Below, one piece after another: positions 481 to 24,563 of a stretch of 25,924 nt of DNA (its first letter is position 1; every line of letters starts with the position of its first letter). The position numbers were made by a program, and so were the translations under genes. Location of the stretch: the IMG/VR virus record IMGVR_UViG_3300027917_000161, positions 1 through 25,924 of that record; one strand, written 5' to 3'. The stretch comes from a virus. The notes beneath the pieces are model-generated. The model did not search any database, was not told where the DNA came from, and was given only the letters and a program-made list of their open reading frames with translations.

Positions 481-807
481 ATGGGTAAGCATTATTTACT
501 TAACTTGTATGGGTGTTCATTTGTTCTTTTGAACGATGAACACCTTCTTATTGACTTGCTGGAAAATGCTGCTGCAGCAAGTGGAGCAACAGTATGTCAA
601 ACGATATCAAAAAAGTTTGACCCACAAGGAGTTACAGTTTTGTGCTTACTCTCAGAGAGTCATATTAGTATTCACACTTGGCCTGAAGAAGGTAAAGCGG
701 CAGTAGATGTTTATACCTGTGGAGATTGCAATCCAAAGATTGGATGTGACATAATTATTCACCAGCTTTGTGCCACAGACCATACCCTTAGTTATATTGA
801 AAGGTAA
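481..807 (+). CDS. speD: S-adenosylmethionine decarboxylase proenzyme
   Basis: SpeD removes the carboxyl group of S-adenosylmethionine to give the aminopropyl donor for spermidine synthesis. The 108-aa protein has the length of bacterial class 1B proenzymes. The self-cleavage motif SESHISIHTWPE is intact: E59-S60 is the predicted cleavage pair, where Ser becomes the catalytic pyruvoyl group. H65 and C80 (in YTCGD) sit at the spacing of the processing and catalytic residues of the Thermotoga enzyme (Ser63, His68, Cys83). The second half, with CNPKIGCDIIIHQL, also fits the family. speD is a known auxiliary metabolic gene of T4-like cyanophages, where extra polyamine could help DNA packaging or host physiology (inference). 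It lies 6 bases after the 126-aa gene, is preceded only by an A-rich stretch, and no good terminator follows. Confidence 0.95.
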   Translation: MGKHYLLNLYGCSFVLLNDEHLLIDLLENAAAASGATVCQTISKKFDPQGVTVLCLLSESHISIHTWPEEGKAAVDVYTCGDCNPKIGCDIIIHQLCATDHTLSYIER

Positions 808-887: not shown

Positions 888-903
888 TGTAACATTTGTT
901 ACA
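888..903. promoter_or_regulatory. NtcA-like palindromic operator
   Basis: TGTAACATTTGTTACA is a perfect 16-base inverted repeat. It contains GTA-N8-TAC (889-902), the consensus of the cyanobacterial nitrogen regulator NtcA, which binds when 2-oxoglutarate is high. It ends 7 bases before the -35 box at 911. Its centre is about 50 bases before the predicted start site. Classical NtcA activation sites lie near -41.5, so the position is roughly one helical turn too far upstream and a full -35 box is present. Activation, or repression by some other dimeric regulator, are both possible. The palindrome itself is certain; the NtcA assignment is inference. Confidence 0.6.
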
Positions 904-910
904 AAAATAC

Positions 911-939
911 TTGACTATATATGATATTAGGGGTATAAT
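911..939 (+). promoter_or_regulatory. sigma70-type promoter of the riboswitch unit
   Basis: TTGACT (911-916) and a perfect TATAAT (934-939) are separated by 17 bases. The expected start is near 946, only a couple of bases before the 5' strand of the riboswitch P1 helix at 948, so promoter and aptamer positions support each other. Host RNA polymerase could read it early in infection. Confidence 0.85.
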
Positions 940-945
940 ACTCTT

Positions 946-1038
946 GTCGTTCATCTGCTATTTGCGAATAGCAAATAGAGACGGAAGTACCGAAAGGGAA
1001 GGAACGCAAATTTACTCATTCAGTAAAGGAGCAACCTT
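946..1038 (+). ncRNA. glutamine-II-type riboswitch (Downstream-peptide motif) leader
   Basis: The leader matches my recollection of the Downstream-peptide / glutamine-II aptamer of marine Synechococcus, Prochlorococcus and their phages. CGTTC (948-952) pairs with GAACG (1002-1006). A long hairpin CTATTTGC/GCAAATAG (958-965/971-978, loop GAATA) is extended by TCT/AGA around a bulged G. The conserved CGGAAGTA (982-989) follows, then a short CC-GAAA-GG hairpin (990-997) and GGAAGGAACGC (997-1007). Downstream, TTTACT/AGTAAA (1011-1016/1022-1027) forms a 6-bp hairpin whose 3' arm runs into the Shine-Dalgarno AAGGAG (1026-1031). That suggests control of translation of the 33-aa peptide starting at 1039. 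The known class binds L-glutamine. The ligand in this copy is inferred by family. Confidence 0.85.
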
Positions 1039-1140
1039 ATGAAAATCACTTTCGTACAATACCTAAAAGAAAAGGATAAAAAGCGGAAAAAACTTCATAA
1101 CGCCGAAATTAATATGGCTAAAAAGCCACAAGTAGCGTGA
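1039..1140 (+). CDS. 33-aa basic peptide under riboswitch control
   Basis: The gene begins at ATG 1039, 7 bases after a strong AAGGAG, and ends at TGA 1138-1140. The product (MKITFVQYLKEKDKKRKK at its start) has 9 Lys, 1 Arg and only 3 acidic residues, net about +7. The first half looks like a single amphipathic or basic helix. Short peptide genes directly after this RNA motif are what gave the Downstream-peptide motif its name. In cyanobacteria, glutamine riboswitches control gifB-type glutamine-synthetase inactivating factors, which are also small basic proteins, so a role in modulating host glutamine synthetase is a reasonable hypothesis. I see no convincing sequence similarity to IF7/IF17. 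Its stop overlaps the GTG start of the next gene. Confidence 0.8.
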   Translation: MKITFVQYLKEKDKKRKKLHNAEINMAKKPQVA

Positions 1141-1295
1141 TTAGTGAAGACTATTATCATGAAGAAAATATTGATGACAGAGAACCTGCTTGTTATCTTT
1201 TAACATATAGAGGTCAAAATTATTGGCACTGTTATGGCATTCATTTAATTGAGTGGTTTGAGCAAATTTATGATAAAAACTTTGAGGGGGGTTGA
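1137..1295 (+). CDS. 52-aa acidic protein, GTG start, translationally coupled
   Basis: An open frame begins at GTG 1137, overlapping the preceding stop as GTGA, and ends at TGA 1293-1295. No ATG is available in this frame. The composition looks coding: Tyr, Trp and His rich with short hydrophobic strands (ACYLLTYRGQNYWHCYGIHL, IEWFEQIYDKNFEGG). It has about 11 acidic and 3 basic residues, net about -8, opposite to the 33-aa peptide just upstream. I do not recognise the family. The core strand-turn-strand plus helix pattern could be a small folded domain. Its last codons form the 5' arm of the intrinsic terminator, which marks the end of the transcription unit. It is probably expressed only by coupling from the riboswitch-controlled gene. 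Confidence 0.7.
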   Translation: MISEDYYHEENIDDREPACYLLTYRGQNYWHCYGIHLIEWFEQIYDKNFEGG

Positions 1296-1311
1296 CTCCC
1301 TCTCTTTTTTT
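1284..1311 (+). terminator. intrinsic terminator of the riboswitch unit
   Basis: GAGGGGG (1284-1290) pairs with CTCCCTC (1296-1302), one G-T pair included, across the 5-base loop GTTGA. TCTTTTTTT follows. The hairpin starts inside the last codons of the 52-aa gene. Confidence 0.9.
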
Positions 1312-1320
1312 GTGTATGAT
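1292..1320 (+). promoter_or_regulatory. sigma70-type promoter superimposed on the terminator
   Basis: TTGACT (1292-1297) lies in the terminator loop and 3' arm, and TATGAT (1315-1320) lies just after the T-tract, with exactly 17 bases between. The predicted start near 1327 leaves a leader of about 15 bases before the ATG at 1342. It would restart transcription for the two small genes and thyX. Confidence 0.65.
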
Positions 1321-19772: not shown

Positions 19773-22700
19773 ATGTATATTGAATTTCCATCAAACCCTA
19801 CAGTAGGTCTTACTACTTCTATTGGGGAGAAGACCTGGATTTATACTGGAAAGGGGTGGAAACTTCAATTTGTTCCAGCAACTCAAGGTACTCAAGGTAC
19901 TCAAGGTCCACTGAGTAATTTTCAGGGAACTCAAGGAAGACAGGGTTTACAGGGAATTCAAGGAAACCAAGGTCTCCAAGGAAATCAAGGTCTCCAAGGA
20001 AATCAAGGTCTCCAAGGAAATCAAGGTCTCCAAGGAAATCAAGGTGTTCAGGGCAATCAAGGTCTCCAAGGTGTTCAAGGACCTTTAAGCAATAATCAAG
20101 GTACTCAAGGTACTCAAGGTCTTCAAGGAAACCAAGGTGTTCAGGGTATCCAGGGCCCCCTAAGTAATTTTCAGGGAACTCAAGGATTACAAGGAAATCA
20201 AGGTCTTCAAGGACTTCAGGGCCTTCAAGGTCTTCAAGGAACTCAAGGTCATCAAGGTTCTCAGGGAACTCAGGGAACACAAGGTACTCAAGGAACTCAA
20301 GGAAATCAAGGTCTTCAGGGAAATCAAAGTTCTCAGGGAACACAAGGTACTCAAGGAACTCAAGGTCTTCAAGGCACTCAAGGCACTCAAGGTTCCCAAG
20401 GTTCTCAAGGTTCTCAAGGACTTCAAGGCACTCAAGGTTTACAAGGTACTCAAGGTACTCAAGGCACTCAAGGTTTACAAGGCACTCAAGGTACTCAAGG
20501 CACTCAAGGCACTCAAGGTACTCAAGGCACTCAAGGTTTACAAGGTACTCAAGGTACTCAAGGTACTCAAGGTTTACAAGGTACTCAAGGTTTACAAGGT
20601 ACTCAAGGTTTACAAGGTTTACAAGGAATTCAAGGTTTACAAGGTACTCAGGGTTTACAAGGTACTCAAGGTTTACAGGGTTCACAAGGAACTCAAGGTT
20701 CACAAGGTACTCAAGGTTTACAAGGTTTACAAGGAACTCAGGGTCTTCAAGGTCTTCAGGGTCTTCAGGGACTTCAAGGATCTGCTAATTTTGGATTTCT
20801 CATAGAAGAAGATAATGAAAATGAAATAAGATATATTGGTTTTGTTACAGATACAGTTGGTACAGCTTCAACACTATATGTAAATTCCTCCGAGGAAAAT
20901 GCTTTTGTATTCAACCCAAATCTTGGTAATGTTGGAATTGGGACAACAAATCCAACAGAAAAATTACAAGTATCTGGAAATGTTGAAGTTTCTAATAATG
21001 TATCAGCATTAGCATATTTTGGCGATGGTGTCAATTTAACTGGAATTGTTACTCAAATTGTTCCAAGTATTGGAATTAATATTCAGGAAACTGAAGTTCC
21101 TGGGAAAGGTGTTGTAACAATTGATGCATACAAACCAGTTGGAAAAACGATATATGTATCCCAAACTGGAGATGATAATAATACTGGATTTACTGAAAAC
21201 TATCCCAAGAGGACTATAAAAGGTGCTGCTTCAGTAGCAGTATTTGGGGATACAATTAAAGTATTTCCGGGTGTTTATGTTGAAGATAATCCAATTATTT
21301 TAAAGAGAACAGTTTCTGTTGAAGGAACAGAACTTCGTAACTGCGTTGTTACACCTGGGAATGTCAATCAAGATATTTTCTATGTAAATAACGGATGCCA
21401 TATTACTGATATGAGTTTTATTGGACCTGATATGACAGATGGTGCGGCAGTAGTTGCTCTACAACCACTACTGGGTGTAAATGTGGACAGATATTTTGAT
21501 GCTGCTAGAATGATTCGTTATAATTTAGAGTACATTGCACAAGAGTCTGTTGGATTTTTAACAAGTGGTTATAGTGGATTTGCTGGAGGGCATAGGTATC
21601 AAGACGCTGGAAACTTATTAGAATTAAATGCTGACTTTATTGCTGCCGAAACAGTTGGTTATTTGACTAGTACTGATTATAAGAATCCACCATTTCAAAT
21701 TGTTGACTCTTTAGGAAATCTTACTGAACCATCAAATTGCACTGATGATATCAAAGATATAGTGTTACAATGGGCAAATGACTTAAAAGCAAATAGTAAT
21801 AAAAAGTCTATTGGTGCAGGTCTTTCTTATTATGATGATGGTGGTTCATTGCTACACATTGTAGGAAATGATCCGAATACATATAGCGTTCGACAAGCAA
21901 CAGTTGATGCTATTGAATATGCTGTTGGAATTGCAACATTTATTGTTGATAATATTGATTACGAAAATCAACCAGGAATAACTACATATACAAATTTGTC
22001 CCAAAACTTTAGTTATTCGCCAATTTTGGTTGGTGGAGGTTGTACTGATGTTAGGAATGATTTGGTGAATCTTTCTGGAATTGTAACTTCAATTATTGGT
22101 ATAGGTACTGAAGAGGCACCAGAAACTATATTTGGCGTTAGATTGGAAAGTGAAAAGTGTGCAAAAGATGTAAAAGATATTTGGAAGTCAATTATATATG
22201 ATTTAACACGAGGAGGAAATTCAAAATCAATCAGAGCAGGAAAATTCTATTACGACGATGATTTTGTATTGAATCCAGAAATTCTTAAGAACCCTCAAGA
22301 AGTTGAACAAACAATTGCAACCCTTGACTATTCATTTAACATTGTAAGGTCTGTAGTGAATAATGTAAGTTGGGGAAGTTGGCCAGTTGGATTTGGAGTA
22401 AATCCACTTAATGTTACTAATGCAACTTATGATAATGTAACAGGATTAACTACAATAACTGTAAATGCGAATCATAATTTGCAGGTTGAGAGTGTCGTTA
22501 AGATAGAAGGATTGGAATTCTCTTGTCCCGATAGTCCGCCAAATCTAATCTACCCAACTGGAAGTCTTGGATATATCTTTGAGGTGCATAAATTAATTGA
22601 TAATGATACATTTGAAGTAATTGTTGGACAATCAACTCTTCCACATACATATGTTTCTGGTGGAACTGTTCAGCAATATAAAAACTTCTATAATAAATTC

Positions 22701-24563
22701 ACCCAATTAAAGGACCTTTCAATTCAGATTGACCCAGATACTGGATTTAATAATGGAATTAATGGATGCGTAAATGTTGTTTCTGCATTGCGAAGTGCTG
22801 TTGGTGTTGTAACAACAGTAATTGGTCTTGGAGCAACATCAGGAATTACTACAACATATCCCGGAAATAATGGATATGGATTTACCTCTACTGTTGCTAT
22901 AAGTACTGCAACATATGACCATATAAATGGAACTGCCACAATAACTGTGCCAGGATTATCAACAAAAGTTGGTGATTTAATTGAGATGTATGATTTAGTA
23001 TTTGAATGTAGTTCTGGATTAACAACTTCAACTCAAAAATTCCCATCAGGAACCTATGGATATGAATTTTATATTACAAAAGTAGTAGATAACAATACTT
23101 TCCAAGTTAATGTTGGAACTTCAACTCTTCCACATACATACGTTTCTGGTGGATTTATTATTGATCGTTCTATTGGAATTACATCGGCACTGTACGATAA
23201 TATTTCTGGAATAGCTACAATCGGAGCACCTGGAGCATATCTAAAAGTTGGTGATTTTGTTGGTCTTAGAGATATGGAATTCTCTTGCCCAGATAGTCCA
23301 CCAAATTTAATTTATCCATCAGGAAATAATGGTTATATATTTAAAGTTGAAAGTGTTGTTTCTTTAGGAAATACATTCACAGTTAATGTTGGAACTTCAA
23401 CTATCCCACATACTTATGTTTCGGGTGGACTTGTAATACCACCATACTCAAAAGGAGTTGGTCCAATTACTCAAGGTCCATATGTTAGAAACTGTACTAA
23501 TTTTATTCCAAAGAGTATTGGAATGAAAGTTGATGGATTTGATGCTGAACCAGGAGACCAAGATGATATTGGTGTGACTGGAACGATGAGTGTTGACTCA
23601 TACACTCAATACAATCAGGGTGGTATTGGAGTATCAATTACCAATGGTGCATATTCTCAGTTAGTGTCTATCTTCACTATTTGTGACGACATTGCAATTT
23701 ACACTGCTTCTGGTGGACAGTGTGACTTAACAAACTCCAACTCATCTTTTGGAAATTATGGTTTATGGTCAGATGGTGTTGGTGACCAAACAACTGGTTC
23801 AATTTACCACTATACTGGAAAGGTAGTTCAAGATGCTGAGTTAGAGCAAGATACTGTTGTAATAGGTGGAATTGGAACCTATAGACCTTATGATGGGCAG
23901 GCACTATTTTTTGATAAACTTTATTATTTTGTTGATGGTATTAAAATTACAAATAGTGGAGGAGGATATACAGTTCCCCCAGTTGTTACTTTTAGTTTCC
24001 CAGAGGGTCAAAATGGAATTCGTGCAGAGGGTAGTGCAAACATTGATTCATTTGGAAGAGTTACATCTATTGATGTAATTAGTAGCGGTACGCAATATCT
24101 AAACCCACCCACAGTTACTATTAGTGGTAATGGCACTGGAGCGACAGCGGAACCAATTATGTATCCAATTTATTACTCTATTCAATCTGCAACTTTACCT
24201 GAACAGGGTGTATCAACTGTAGTTCTCCTATCCAATCTAAATAATAATGTTAGTGCTGGAACAACAGTTTACTTTACTAGAGTAAGTCTACAAATTACAT
24301 CTTCCCATTCATTTGAGTGGGTCGGTTCTGGGGTAAATATTAATAATGCAAAACCTGCTTTAGGTGGTGTCGTAATTCAAGAGAATGAAGTAGTTAAAAC
24401 TAATGGTGGAATTATTGTATATACAAGTACTGATCAGGGTGGAAATTTCAAAATTGGAGATGATGTAACAATTAATCAGGTGACTGGAACAATTACTGGT
24501 AGAGCATTTAGTCAAAGTCTGTTAAATACAGTAACACCACTTATTATTGCTTTAGGTAAGTAA
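19773..24563 (+). CDS. long virion fibre with Gly-X-Gln collagen-like shaft
   Basis: A 1596-aa protein. Residues 1-35 (MYIEFPSNPTVGLTTSIGEKTWIYTGKGWK) form an N-terminal anchor. Residues 37-336 are about 100 Gly-X-Gln triplets. Next is NVGIGTTNPTEKLQVSGNV, a common fibre strand motif. A probable right-handed beta-helix follows (about 455-560, GKTIYVSQTGDDNNTG, GDTIKVFPGVYVED). Two similar helical modules come after (SNCTDDIKDIVLQWANDLK... and KCAKDVKDIWKSIIYDLT...). Then there are three tandem modules of about 85 aa ending in PHTYVSGG (about 883-966, 1044-1130, 1137-1222). The C-terminal part has GGGYTVPPVVTF/GRVTSIDVISSG repeats and a small end domain. A host-contact tail fibre or other long appendage is likely. 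The receptor cannot be inferred. Confidence 0.85.
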   Translation: MYIEFPSNPTVGLTTSIGEKTWIYTGKGWKLQFVPATQGTQGTQGPLSNFQGTQGRQGLQGIQGNQGLQGNQGLQGNQGLQGNQGLQGNQGVQGNQGLQGVQGPLSNNQGTQGTQGLQGNQGVQGIQGPLSNFQGTQGLQGNQGLQGLQGLQGLQGTQGHQGSQGTQGTQGTQGTQGNQGLQGNQSSQGTQGTQGTQGLQGTQGTQGSQGSQGSQGLQGTQGLQGTQGTQGTQGLQGTQGTQGTQGTQGTQGTQGLQGTQGTQGTQGLQGTQGLQGTQGLQGLQGIQGLQGTQGLQGTQGLQGSQGTQGSQGTQGLQGLQGTQGLQGLQGLQGLQGSANFGFLIEEDNENEIRYIGFVTDTVGTASTLYVNSSEENAFVFNPNLGNVGIGTTNPTEKLQVSGNVEVSNNVSALAYFGDGVNLTGIVTQIVPSIGINIQETEVPGKGVVTIDAYKPVGKTIYVSQTGDDNNTGFTENYPKRTIKGAASVAVFGDTIKVFPGVYVEDNPIILKRTVSVEGTELRNCVVTPGNVNQDIFYVNNGCHITDMSFIGPDMTDGAAVVALQPLLGVNVDRYFDAARMIRYNLEYIAQESVGFLTSGYSGFAGGHRYQDAGNLLELNADFIAAETVGYLTSTDYKNPPFQIVDSLGNLTEPSNCTDDIKDIVLQWANDLKANSNKKSIGAGLSYYDDGGSLLHIVGNDPNTYSVRQATVDAIEYAVGIATFIVDNIDYENQPGITTYTNLSQNFSYSPILVGGGCTDVRNDLVNLSGIVTSIIGIGTEEAPETIFGVRLESEKCAKDVKDIWKSIIYDLTRGGNSKSIRAGKFYYDDDFVLNPEILKNPQEVEQTIATLDYSFNIVRSVVNNVSWGSWPVGFGVNPLNVTNATYDNVTGLTTITVNANHNLQVESVVKIEGLEFSCPDSPPNLIYPTGSLGYIFEVHKLIDNDTFEVIVGQSTLPHTYVSGGTVQQYKNFYNKFTQLKDLSIQIDPDTGFNNGINGCVNVVSALRSAVGVVTTVIGLGATSGITTTYPGNNGYGFTSTVAISTATYDHINGTATITVPGLSTKVGDLIEMYDLVFECSSGLTTSTQKFPSGTYGYEFYITKVVDNNTFQVNVGTSTLPHTYVSGGFIIDRSIGITSALYDNISGIATIGAPGAYLKVGDFVGLRDMEFSCPDSPPNLIYPSGNNGYIFKVESVVSLGNTFTVNVGTSTIPHTYVSGGLVIPPYSKGVGPITQGPYVRNCTNFIPKSIGMKVDGFDAEPGDQDDIGVTGTMSVDSYTQYNQGGIGVSITNGAYSQLVSIFTICDDIAIYTASGGQCDLTNSNSSFGNYGLWSDGVGDQTTGSIYHYTGKVVQDAELEQDTVVIGGIGTYRPYDGQALFFDKLYYFVDGIKITNSGGGYTVPPVVTFSFPEGQNGIRAEGSANIDSFGRVTSIDVISSGTQYLNPPTVTISGNGTGATAEPIMYPIYYSIQSATLPEQGVSTVVLLSNLNNNVSAGTTVYFTRVSLQITSSHSFEWVGSGVNINNAKPALGGVVIQENEVVKTNGGIIVYTSTDQGGNFKIGDDVTINQVTGTITGRAFSQSLLNTVTPLIIALGK
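19881..20780 (+). repeat. 9-bp Gly-X-Gln codon repeat array in the fibre
   Basis: About 100 copies of a GGN-NNN-CAR unit, mainly GGTACTCAA, GGAACTCAA, GGTCTTCAA and GGAAATCAA. X is mostly Thr, Leu or Asn, with rarer Val, Ile, Ser, His and Arg. Four consecutive 18-base units (19962-20033) are nearly identical. Three GPLSN(F/N)Q interruptions occur (19905, 20079, 20154), and one Gly-to-Ser break (QSSQ near 20326). Confidence 0.95.

Follow-up and report, generated by a model that had tools for sequence, protein, structure and literature searches.

A putative NtcA operator upstream of a glutamine riboswitch promoter in T4-like cyanophages

A GTAN8TAC box located directly upstream of a glutamine riboswitch promoter was found in a 25,924-base virus record (the whole stretch of DNA analyzed, hereafter the window), for which cyanophage S-SKS1 was the best-covering named relative, followed by other T4-like cyanophages. 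The anatomy of this unit was read directly from the window, and in related viruses the box was observed to be conserved together with the glutamine leader. As many related viruses have retained this pairing, the nitrogen state of the host is probably sensed twice by the virus before a small protein is made. Although no binding or expression data exist, we cautiously favor the interpretation that the box is an NtcA operator acting in repression and representing one half of a two-input cyanophage unit, the other half being the riboswitch. NtcA as the binding factor, repression, the function of the aptamer as an ON switch, and an effect of the encoded peptide on nitrogen metabolism are inferred. 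Articles cited by accession number were available in part only, and statements based on them are limited to these parts.

Promoter, leader, and genes of the unit

The features of the unit, with positions in the window, are as follows:

481..807, + strand: speD (S-adenosylmethionine decarboxylase), 108 aa, upstream gene from the open reading frame list and locus anchor for the comparison
888..903, no strand: palindrome TGTAACA-TT-TGTTACA (TGTAACATTTGTTACA), whose 7-base arms are perfect and flank a central TT
889..902, no strand: NtcA-type operator core GTAN8TAC, read from the sequence and conserved in relatives (no binding data)
911..916, + strand: -35 element TTGACT, starting 8 nt past the TAC of the box
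934..939, + strand: -10 element TATAAT, 17-nt spacer from the -35 element, 31 nt past the TAC of the box
946, + strand: predicted transcription start, inferred from the promoter, 7 nt past the -10 element and coinciding with the 5' end of the aptamer
946..1010, + strand: type-1 glutamine riboswitch aptamer (RF01739), scored by cmscan at 42.4 bits versus a cut-off of 35
1025..1031, + strand: ribosome-binding-site-like AAAGGAG, read from the sequence
1039..1140, + strand: ORF for a lysine-rich 33-aa peptide, assigned to a family of cyanophage peptides with the consensus LxLIKxKxxKExRLHxAQLxMA
1137..1295, + strand: 52-aa ORF, probably the second gene of the unit; its start overlaps the stop codon of the 33-aa ORF
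1284..1304, + strand: hairpin resembling an intrinsic terminator, with a T run behind it, where the unit probably ends

The name speD was taken from the annotated gene at the same synteny in S-RIM32, with 80 relatives. With 11 of 12 consensus matches, the promoter behind the box ranked first among the 15 promoter-like sites of the initial 3 kb of the window, and, relative to its predicted start, the center of the box is inferred to lie at about -50.5. The first-pass annotation had described a perfect GTA-N8-TAC palindrome 5' of a -35 element, which was confirmed except for the two central nucleotides, these not being palindromic. Its glutamine aptamer behind the same promoter was recovered as well, since the RF01739 match at 946-1010 exceeded the curated cut-off; glutamine binding as such is inferred. 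The order of the 33-aa and 52-aa genes was repeated in three relatives (L007, L080, and L118), and a thyX-like and a phoH-like gene follow 3' of the unit (names according to the S-RIM32 gene order, for phoH also by matches).

As a separate observation, the loop of the terminator hairpin (window 1284-1320) contains TTGAC or a similar motif serving as the -35 element of the promoter that follows, whose -10 element lies after the T run. This compact terminator-promoter overlap recurs in L132, L145, L159, L189, L206, and L212.

The GTAN8TAC core required of an NtcA site is present at 889-902, but the motif in the window alone represents weak evidence, because TGTAN8TACA occurred three times versus 0.67 expected (at least three copies in 4 of 100 shuffles) and GTAN8TAC 13 times versus 4.09 expected. 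A copy arising by chance is thus possible from the window itself, and the RNA of the palindrome could also fold, at -5.1 kcal/mol, as a terminator hairpin of speD. Whether the box is more than chance is decided by the comparative data and not by the motif count.

Conservation of the box with the glutamine leader

Among the matches listed, 80 speD loci (81 including the window) were collected blind to the box; after 14 duplicates, one short sequence, and one locus without a readable speD (L191) had been left out, 65 remained. A glutamine-type leader was defined as CGTT[CT]A and the box as GTAN8TAC at -75 to -15. The box was present in 35 of the 36 distinct speD loci featuring a glutamine-type leader and, with 200 nt behind speD scanned, in none of the 29 leaderless loci (both among the matches listed). 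In L200, the sole exception, the CGTTCA lies at a distance of 359 nt. The letters of the box drift while the motif is kept (TGTATC..GATACA in L080, TGTAGC..GATACA in L007), and in many relatives the box lies across the speD stop or shortly behind it, where the sequence has changed and the motif has not. The check proposed in the first-pass annotation, namely that the palindrome should be kept where the aptamer is kept, was therefore passed among the matches listed. A stricter aptamer pattern had yielded only 11 of 80 loci (among the matches listed), since leaders that are nested or contain ORFs escaped it, as did boxes extending over the speD stop. The first aptamer scan detected the box at -58/-59 or -38 in 11 of 128 aptamers (among the matches listed); most of these box-bearing aptamers had a SpeD C-terminus in the upstream frame, and the remaining matches, judged by reading the sequences, look mostly like phages of other hosts.

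A second set, likewise blind to the box, was assembled by means of the tandem glutamine aptamer pattern and comprised 98 distinct upstream regions among the matches listed, 14 matches without a 5' CGTTCAT, three near contig ends, and five duplicates having been left out. The box was found at -75 to -20 in 72 of these 98 regions (among the matches listed), compared to a mean of 1.88 and a maximum of 6 in 200 rounds of shuffling. Among 64 palindromic N8 dyads compared in this set, GTAN8TAC reached 72 and the next best 11, and GTA/TAC at spacings other than N8 occurred between zero and four times. Clustering at 60% identity left the box in 34 of 51 clusters (among the matches listed), versus 5 of 574 other promoter-like sites on the same contigs (Fisher 5e-38; without thinning, 60 of 85 versus 24 of 2016). 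The search range covered 56 positions at riboswitch promoters and 35 at control promoters.

In a set of 207 loci (L216-L422), the box accompanied 31 of 66 CGTTCA leaders and none of 47 loci without a leader (among the matches listed), a comparison not used as the main test because the scan included loci recruited by the aptamer pattern. The exact box was absent from 26 of the 98 tandem-aptamer leaders (among the matches listed) and from the isolates S-SKS1, ACG-2014b, and P-TIM40. Isolates found by protein (L206-L214) carried the box in six of nine cases, S-SSM4 and S-SSM6b being near-identical, whereas the isolates L121-L123 are biased, because they were found by DNA similarity to a box-containing query. 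In S-CREM1, the box is located at -38.

Taken against these counts (72 of 98 versus shuffles, 34 of 51 versus 5 of 574, and 35 of 36 versus 0 of 29, among the matches listed), a chance match was ruled out. The terminator of speD was rejected in addition, since an A run and not a T run follows the palindrome. An origin of the palindrome by chance or as a speD hairpin is accordingly considered hardly tenable.

Binding factor and direction of control

NtcA is universal in cyanobacteria, and its ChIP consensus in Anabaena shows T at position 4, C at position 5, and A at positions 10 and 11 (PMC3898017). With regard to letters not used for selection, the phage sites carried T at position 4 in 49 and C at position 5 in 61 of 66 cases, with a flanking T in 50 and a flanking A in 59 of 66; the window box has C at position 5, but A instead of T at position 4. 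Among the matches listed, the box was present in 38 of 59 upstream regions of cyanobacterial type-1 glutamine aptamers and in none of 65 upstream regions of non-cyanobacterial type-1 aptamers, including those of SAR86 and SAR11. Type-2 aptamers were present in 54 of the 388 genomes available for the class and were preceded by the box, mostly GTAGC-N4-GCTAC, in all 30 loci fetched (more matches exist). The taxonomic expectation for an NtcA site, i.e., presence where NtcA exists and absence elsewhere, was thus fulfilled by the type-1 aptamers among the matches listed. Since, within this scope, cyanobacterial aptamers carry the box and non-cyanobacterial ones do not, an NtcA-type operator combined with a glutamine riboswitch appears to be a design shared by host and phage. 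The NtcA-like box proposed beforehand is supported in this sense, by a consensus fit beyond GTA/TAC, by the pairing in hosts, and by its absence from non-cyanobacterial aptamers, albeit without binding data. The same lack leaves room for another factor, for example a phage-encoded or other CRP-family regulator sharing GTAN8TAC, and position 10 of the phage sites is G or T, unlike the A of the ChIP consensus (PMC3898017). However, core, spacing, and positions 4 and 5 match NtcA, and the box accompanies cyanobacterial and cyanophage glutamine aptamers while being absent from the non-cyanobacterial ones among the matches listed, so that we regard another binding factor as improbable.

Classical NtcA boxes are separated from the -10 element by 22-23 nt. 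The center of such an activator box lies near -41.5, combined with a TAN3T -10 box (PMC9430850, PMC3898017), and a separation of 22 nt has been named for NtcA activation (PMC3898017). None of 72 phage sites featured the activator distance of N22-23, the window having 31 nt; 46 sites fell at 31-32 nt, 13 at 25-26 nt (centers near -45, the edge of the activator range), three at 40 nt, and the rest elsewhere. Canonical class II activation was ruled out by this distance. The earlier remark that the spacing deviates from the classical site was correct as to the offset, which, however, amounts to 8-9 nt or about 0.8 of a helical turn rather than one turn.

For E. coli FNR, which belongs to the CRP family as NtcA does, repression of ndh and pdhR from -50.5 and of cydAB from -53.5 has been described, and activation mostly from -41.5 ± 4 (PMC3688515). 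As the window box is centered at about -50.5, an FNR repression position, repression at high 2-oxoglutarate is favored. Mean -35 scores with and without the box were 4.60 and 4.62 of 6 (p 0.89), and the -10 elements were equally good; core promoters being equally near consensus in both groups, an activator is not obviously needed. In the absence of expression data, we consider it somewhat probable that NtcA would repress from the box.

Activation from -50.5 by a non-canonical contact remains possible, although we rate it as unlikely; transcription would then occur in the starved host, and the riboswitch would veto translation until glutamine rises. The box lies upstream of the -35 element, the usual place of an activator, non-canonical NtcA-activated promoters are known (PMC3898017, PMC6316151), and Sullivan et al. 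(2010) suggested that phages make use of NtcA to express their genes (PMC3037559). Moreover, 51 of the 72 phage sites had a gap of 7-9 nt between box and -35 element, a tight spacing as expected of a contact and counting against repression. A second class of 12 sites with gaps of 2-4 nt, however, is placed about half a helical turn away from the first, and activation is further opposed by the absence of sites at N22-23, by core promoters no weaker with the box than without it, and by the repression that FNR exerts from -50.5.

The proposed repression does not follow the host type either. NtcA-repressed genes named in the available part of PMC3898017 have the box downstream of the -35 element, an expectation not met by the window box, which ends 8 nt upstream of it. 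In favor of repression, host boxes straddle the -10 element or sit at the start; host-like positions of this kind were also found at a few phage sites (L221, L224, L316, and L324; L229, L240, and L327; P-RSM4 and S-SSM5). Also in its favor, both gifA and gifB are repressed by NtcA, gifB additionally featuring a glutamine riboswitch; against it, the site located at -77.5 upstream of gifA in Anabaena is thought to activate (PMC6316151).

Under repression, NtcA bound at about -50.5 would lower transcription from the near-consensus sigma-70 promoter in a nitrogen-poor cell with high 2-oxoglutarate, whereas in a nitrogen-rich cell it would leave the box and RNA would be made. Glutamine bound to the aptamer at the 5' end of the transcript may then permit the basic 33-aa peptide and the 52-aa protein to be translated. 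Together, both steps would make the unit an AND gate that requires low 2-oxoglutarate along with high glutamine, a logic known for host gifB.

Two further types of sites were observed in this context. In L459, L467, L476, L511, L519, and L539, host promoters of the gifB type have a pair of GTAN8TAC boxes, at -77/-78 and at -31 with a spacing of 46-47 nt, and recall the two-site gifA promoter of Anabaena. A degenerate GTAN8AAC (e.g., GTATCnnnnTGAAC) was seen by eye approximately 60-75 nt upstream of the aptamer in picocyanobacteria (L543, L548, L549, L550, L556, and L566) and also in P-RSM4, ACG-2014b, and S-SSM5 (L208, L210, and L211); in the hosts, this site may sit at the classical activator distance.

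Small proteins and relation to known systems

Alignment placed the 33-aa peptide in a family of short basic peptides that many phages encode behind this leader, in some cases (L012, S-CREM1, and Bellamy) as a fusion with a YRG stretch. No match to the 33-aa peptide was obtained in Pfam, NCBIfam, or PHROG, and the window product did not meet the test for an inactivating-factor or DUF4278 domain. Homology of the peptide family to the host glutamine synthetase (GS) inactivating factors IF7/IF17, plausible by eye, was not supported by hhalign (probability 0.1). The fusions of YRG stretch and basic helix in L012 and S-CREM1 resemble IF17 in layout only, and a PDB search with the L012 fusion gave no match. 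In sister units (L003, L010, L024, and L033), the same leader precedes a 45-aa DUF4278-like gene, the Pfam match for L003 (E 0.001) being below the cut-off, and genes of S-SSM5 and P-TIM40 are annotated as DUF4278 in their records. DUF4278 represents the N-terminal part of IF17, the product of Synechocystis gifB (PMC6316151). Due to these sister-unit genes and the dual control of gifB, a nitrogen-control role for the small proteins is plausible.

Synechocystis gifB (IF17) resembles the window in combining a promoter NtcA box with a type-1 aptamer in the 5' UTR (PMC6316151). However, gifB-type host boxes straddle the -10 element, whereas the window box lies upstream of the -35 element, and the host product has DUF4278 and inactivating-factor domains that the window peptide lacks. 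PMM1846-type picocyanobacterial genes also feature an NtcA motif and a glutamine riboswitch, before DUF4278 (PMC6316151), but they have a type-2 aptamer (RF01704) with the box at -18 to -14 of the aptamer and adjacent to the start, unlike the window. GTAN8TAC sites, 1-16 per genome, were reported for T4-like cyanophages by Sullivan et al. (2010); in the available part of that source, they were not tied to glutamine riboswitches (PMC3037559), while the studied box is specific to the riboswitch promoter. RF01739-type aptamers as in the window are known from the phages S-CREM1 and Melnitz (PMC9964418, PMC9004378; S-CREM1 annotation); the S-CREM1 paper text, as far as available, contains no mention of NtcA, and Melnitz infects a non-cyanobacterium, unlike the window virus. 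Thus, NtcA sites in cyanophages, glutamine riboswitches in phages, and the pairing in hosts are already in print, as far as the available parts of these sources go. In a literature search with incomplete journal coverage, no report tying NtcA sites to glutamine riboswitches in a phage was found, and the new aspects are the host two-sensor logic in phages and the operator moved upstream of the -35 element.

If this interpretation holds true, a phage promoter integrates opposed host signals, 2-oxoglutarate via NtcA and glutamine via RNA, and the pairing has been kept by selection across many cyanophage lineages. The separate reports on phage NtcA sites and phage glutamine riboswitches would be joined into one unit, providing a concrete and testable route by which phage genes respond to nitrogen status in photosynthetic cells that are very abundant, and a family of tiny phage proteins would emerge as candidates for the regulation of nitrogen assimilation in the host. 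Speculatively, and with considerable doubt, T4-like cyanophages as a group may share or have copied the AND gate of host GS control, NtcA and the riboswitch licensing tiny proteins (DUF4278-like and lysine-rich peptides) that retune GS or the PII system of the infected host, and loop-encoded proteins in many relatives making translation and glutamine sensing mutually exclusive.

Such loop-encoded proteins were noticed in tandem glutamine aptamers, in which small ORFs lie inside P2 hairpin loops (L208-L214, L121, L122, L206, and L216-L334). Of the 31 long first loops, 30 contained an ORF of at least 35 aa starting just after CGTTCAT, as did 70 of the 98 second domains (among the matches listed); its start codon is often within the P2 stem, and its stop was at the same place, beside the aptamer GGAACG, in 65 of 70 second domains. 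These aptamer-loop ORFs may be more novel than the pairing of box and riboswitch itself. A nested or tandem glutamine aptamer (..CGGAAGTAAGCCGACGCGGAACGGATCGTTCAT..) was also observed in L129, L133, L134, L135, L157, L172, L175, L177, and L180 and in isolates; where Rfam reports any family for it, this is RF01739, in part with a long insert. Finally, positions 19773-24563 of the window harbor a 1596-aa ORF with a long collagen-like QGTQGLQGNQ repeat, possibly encoding a tail-fibre-like protein.
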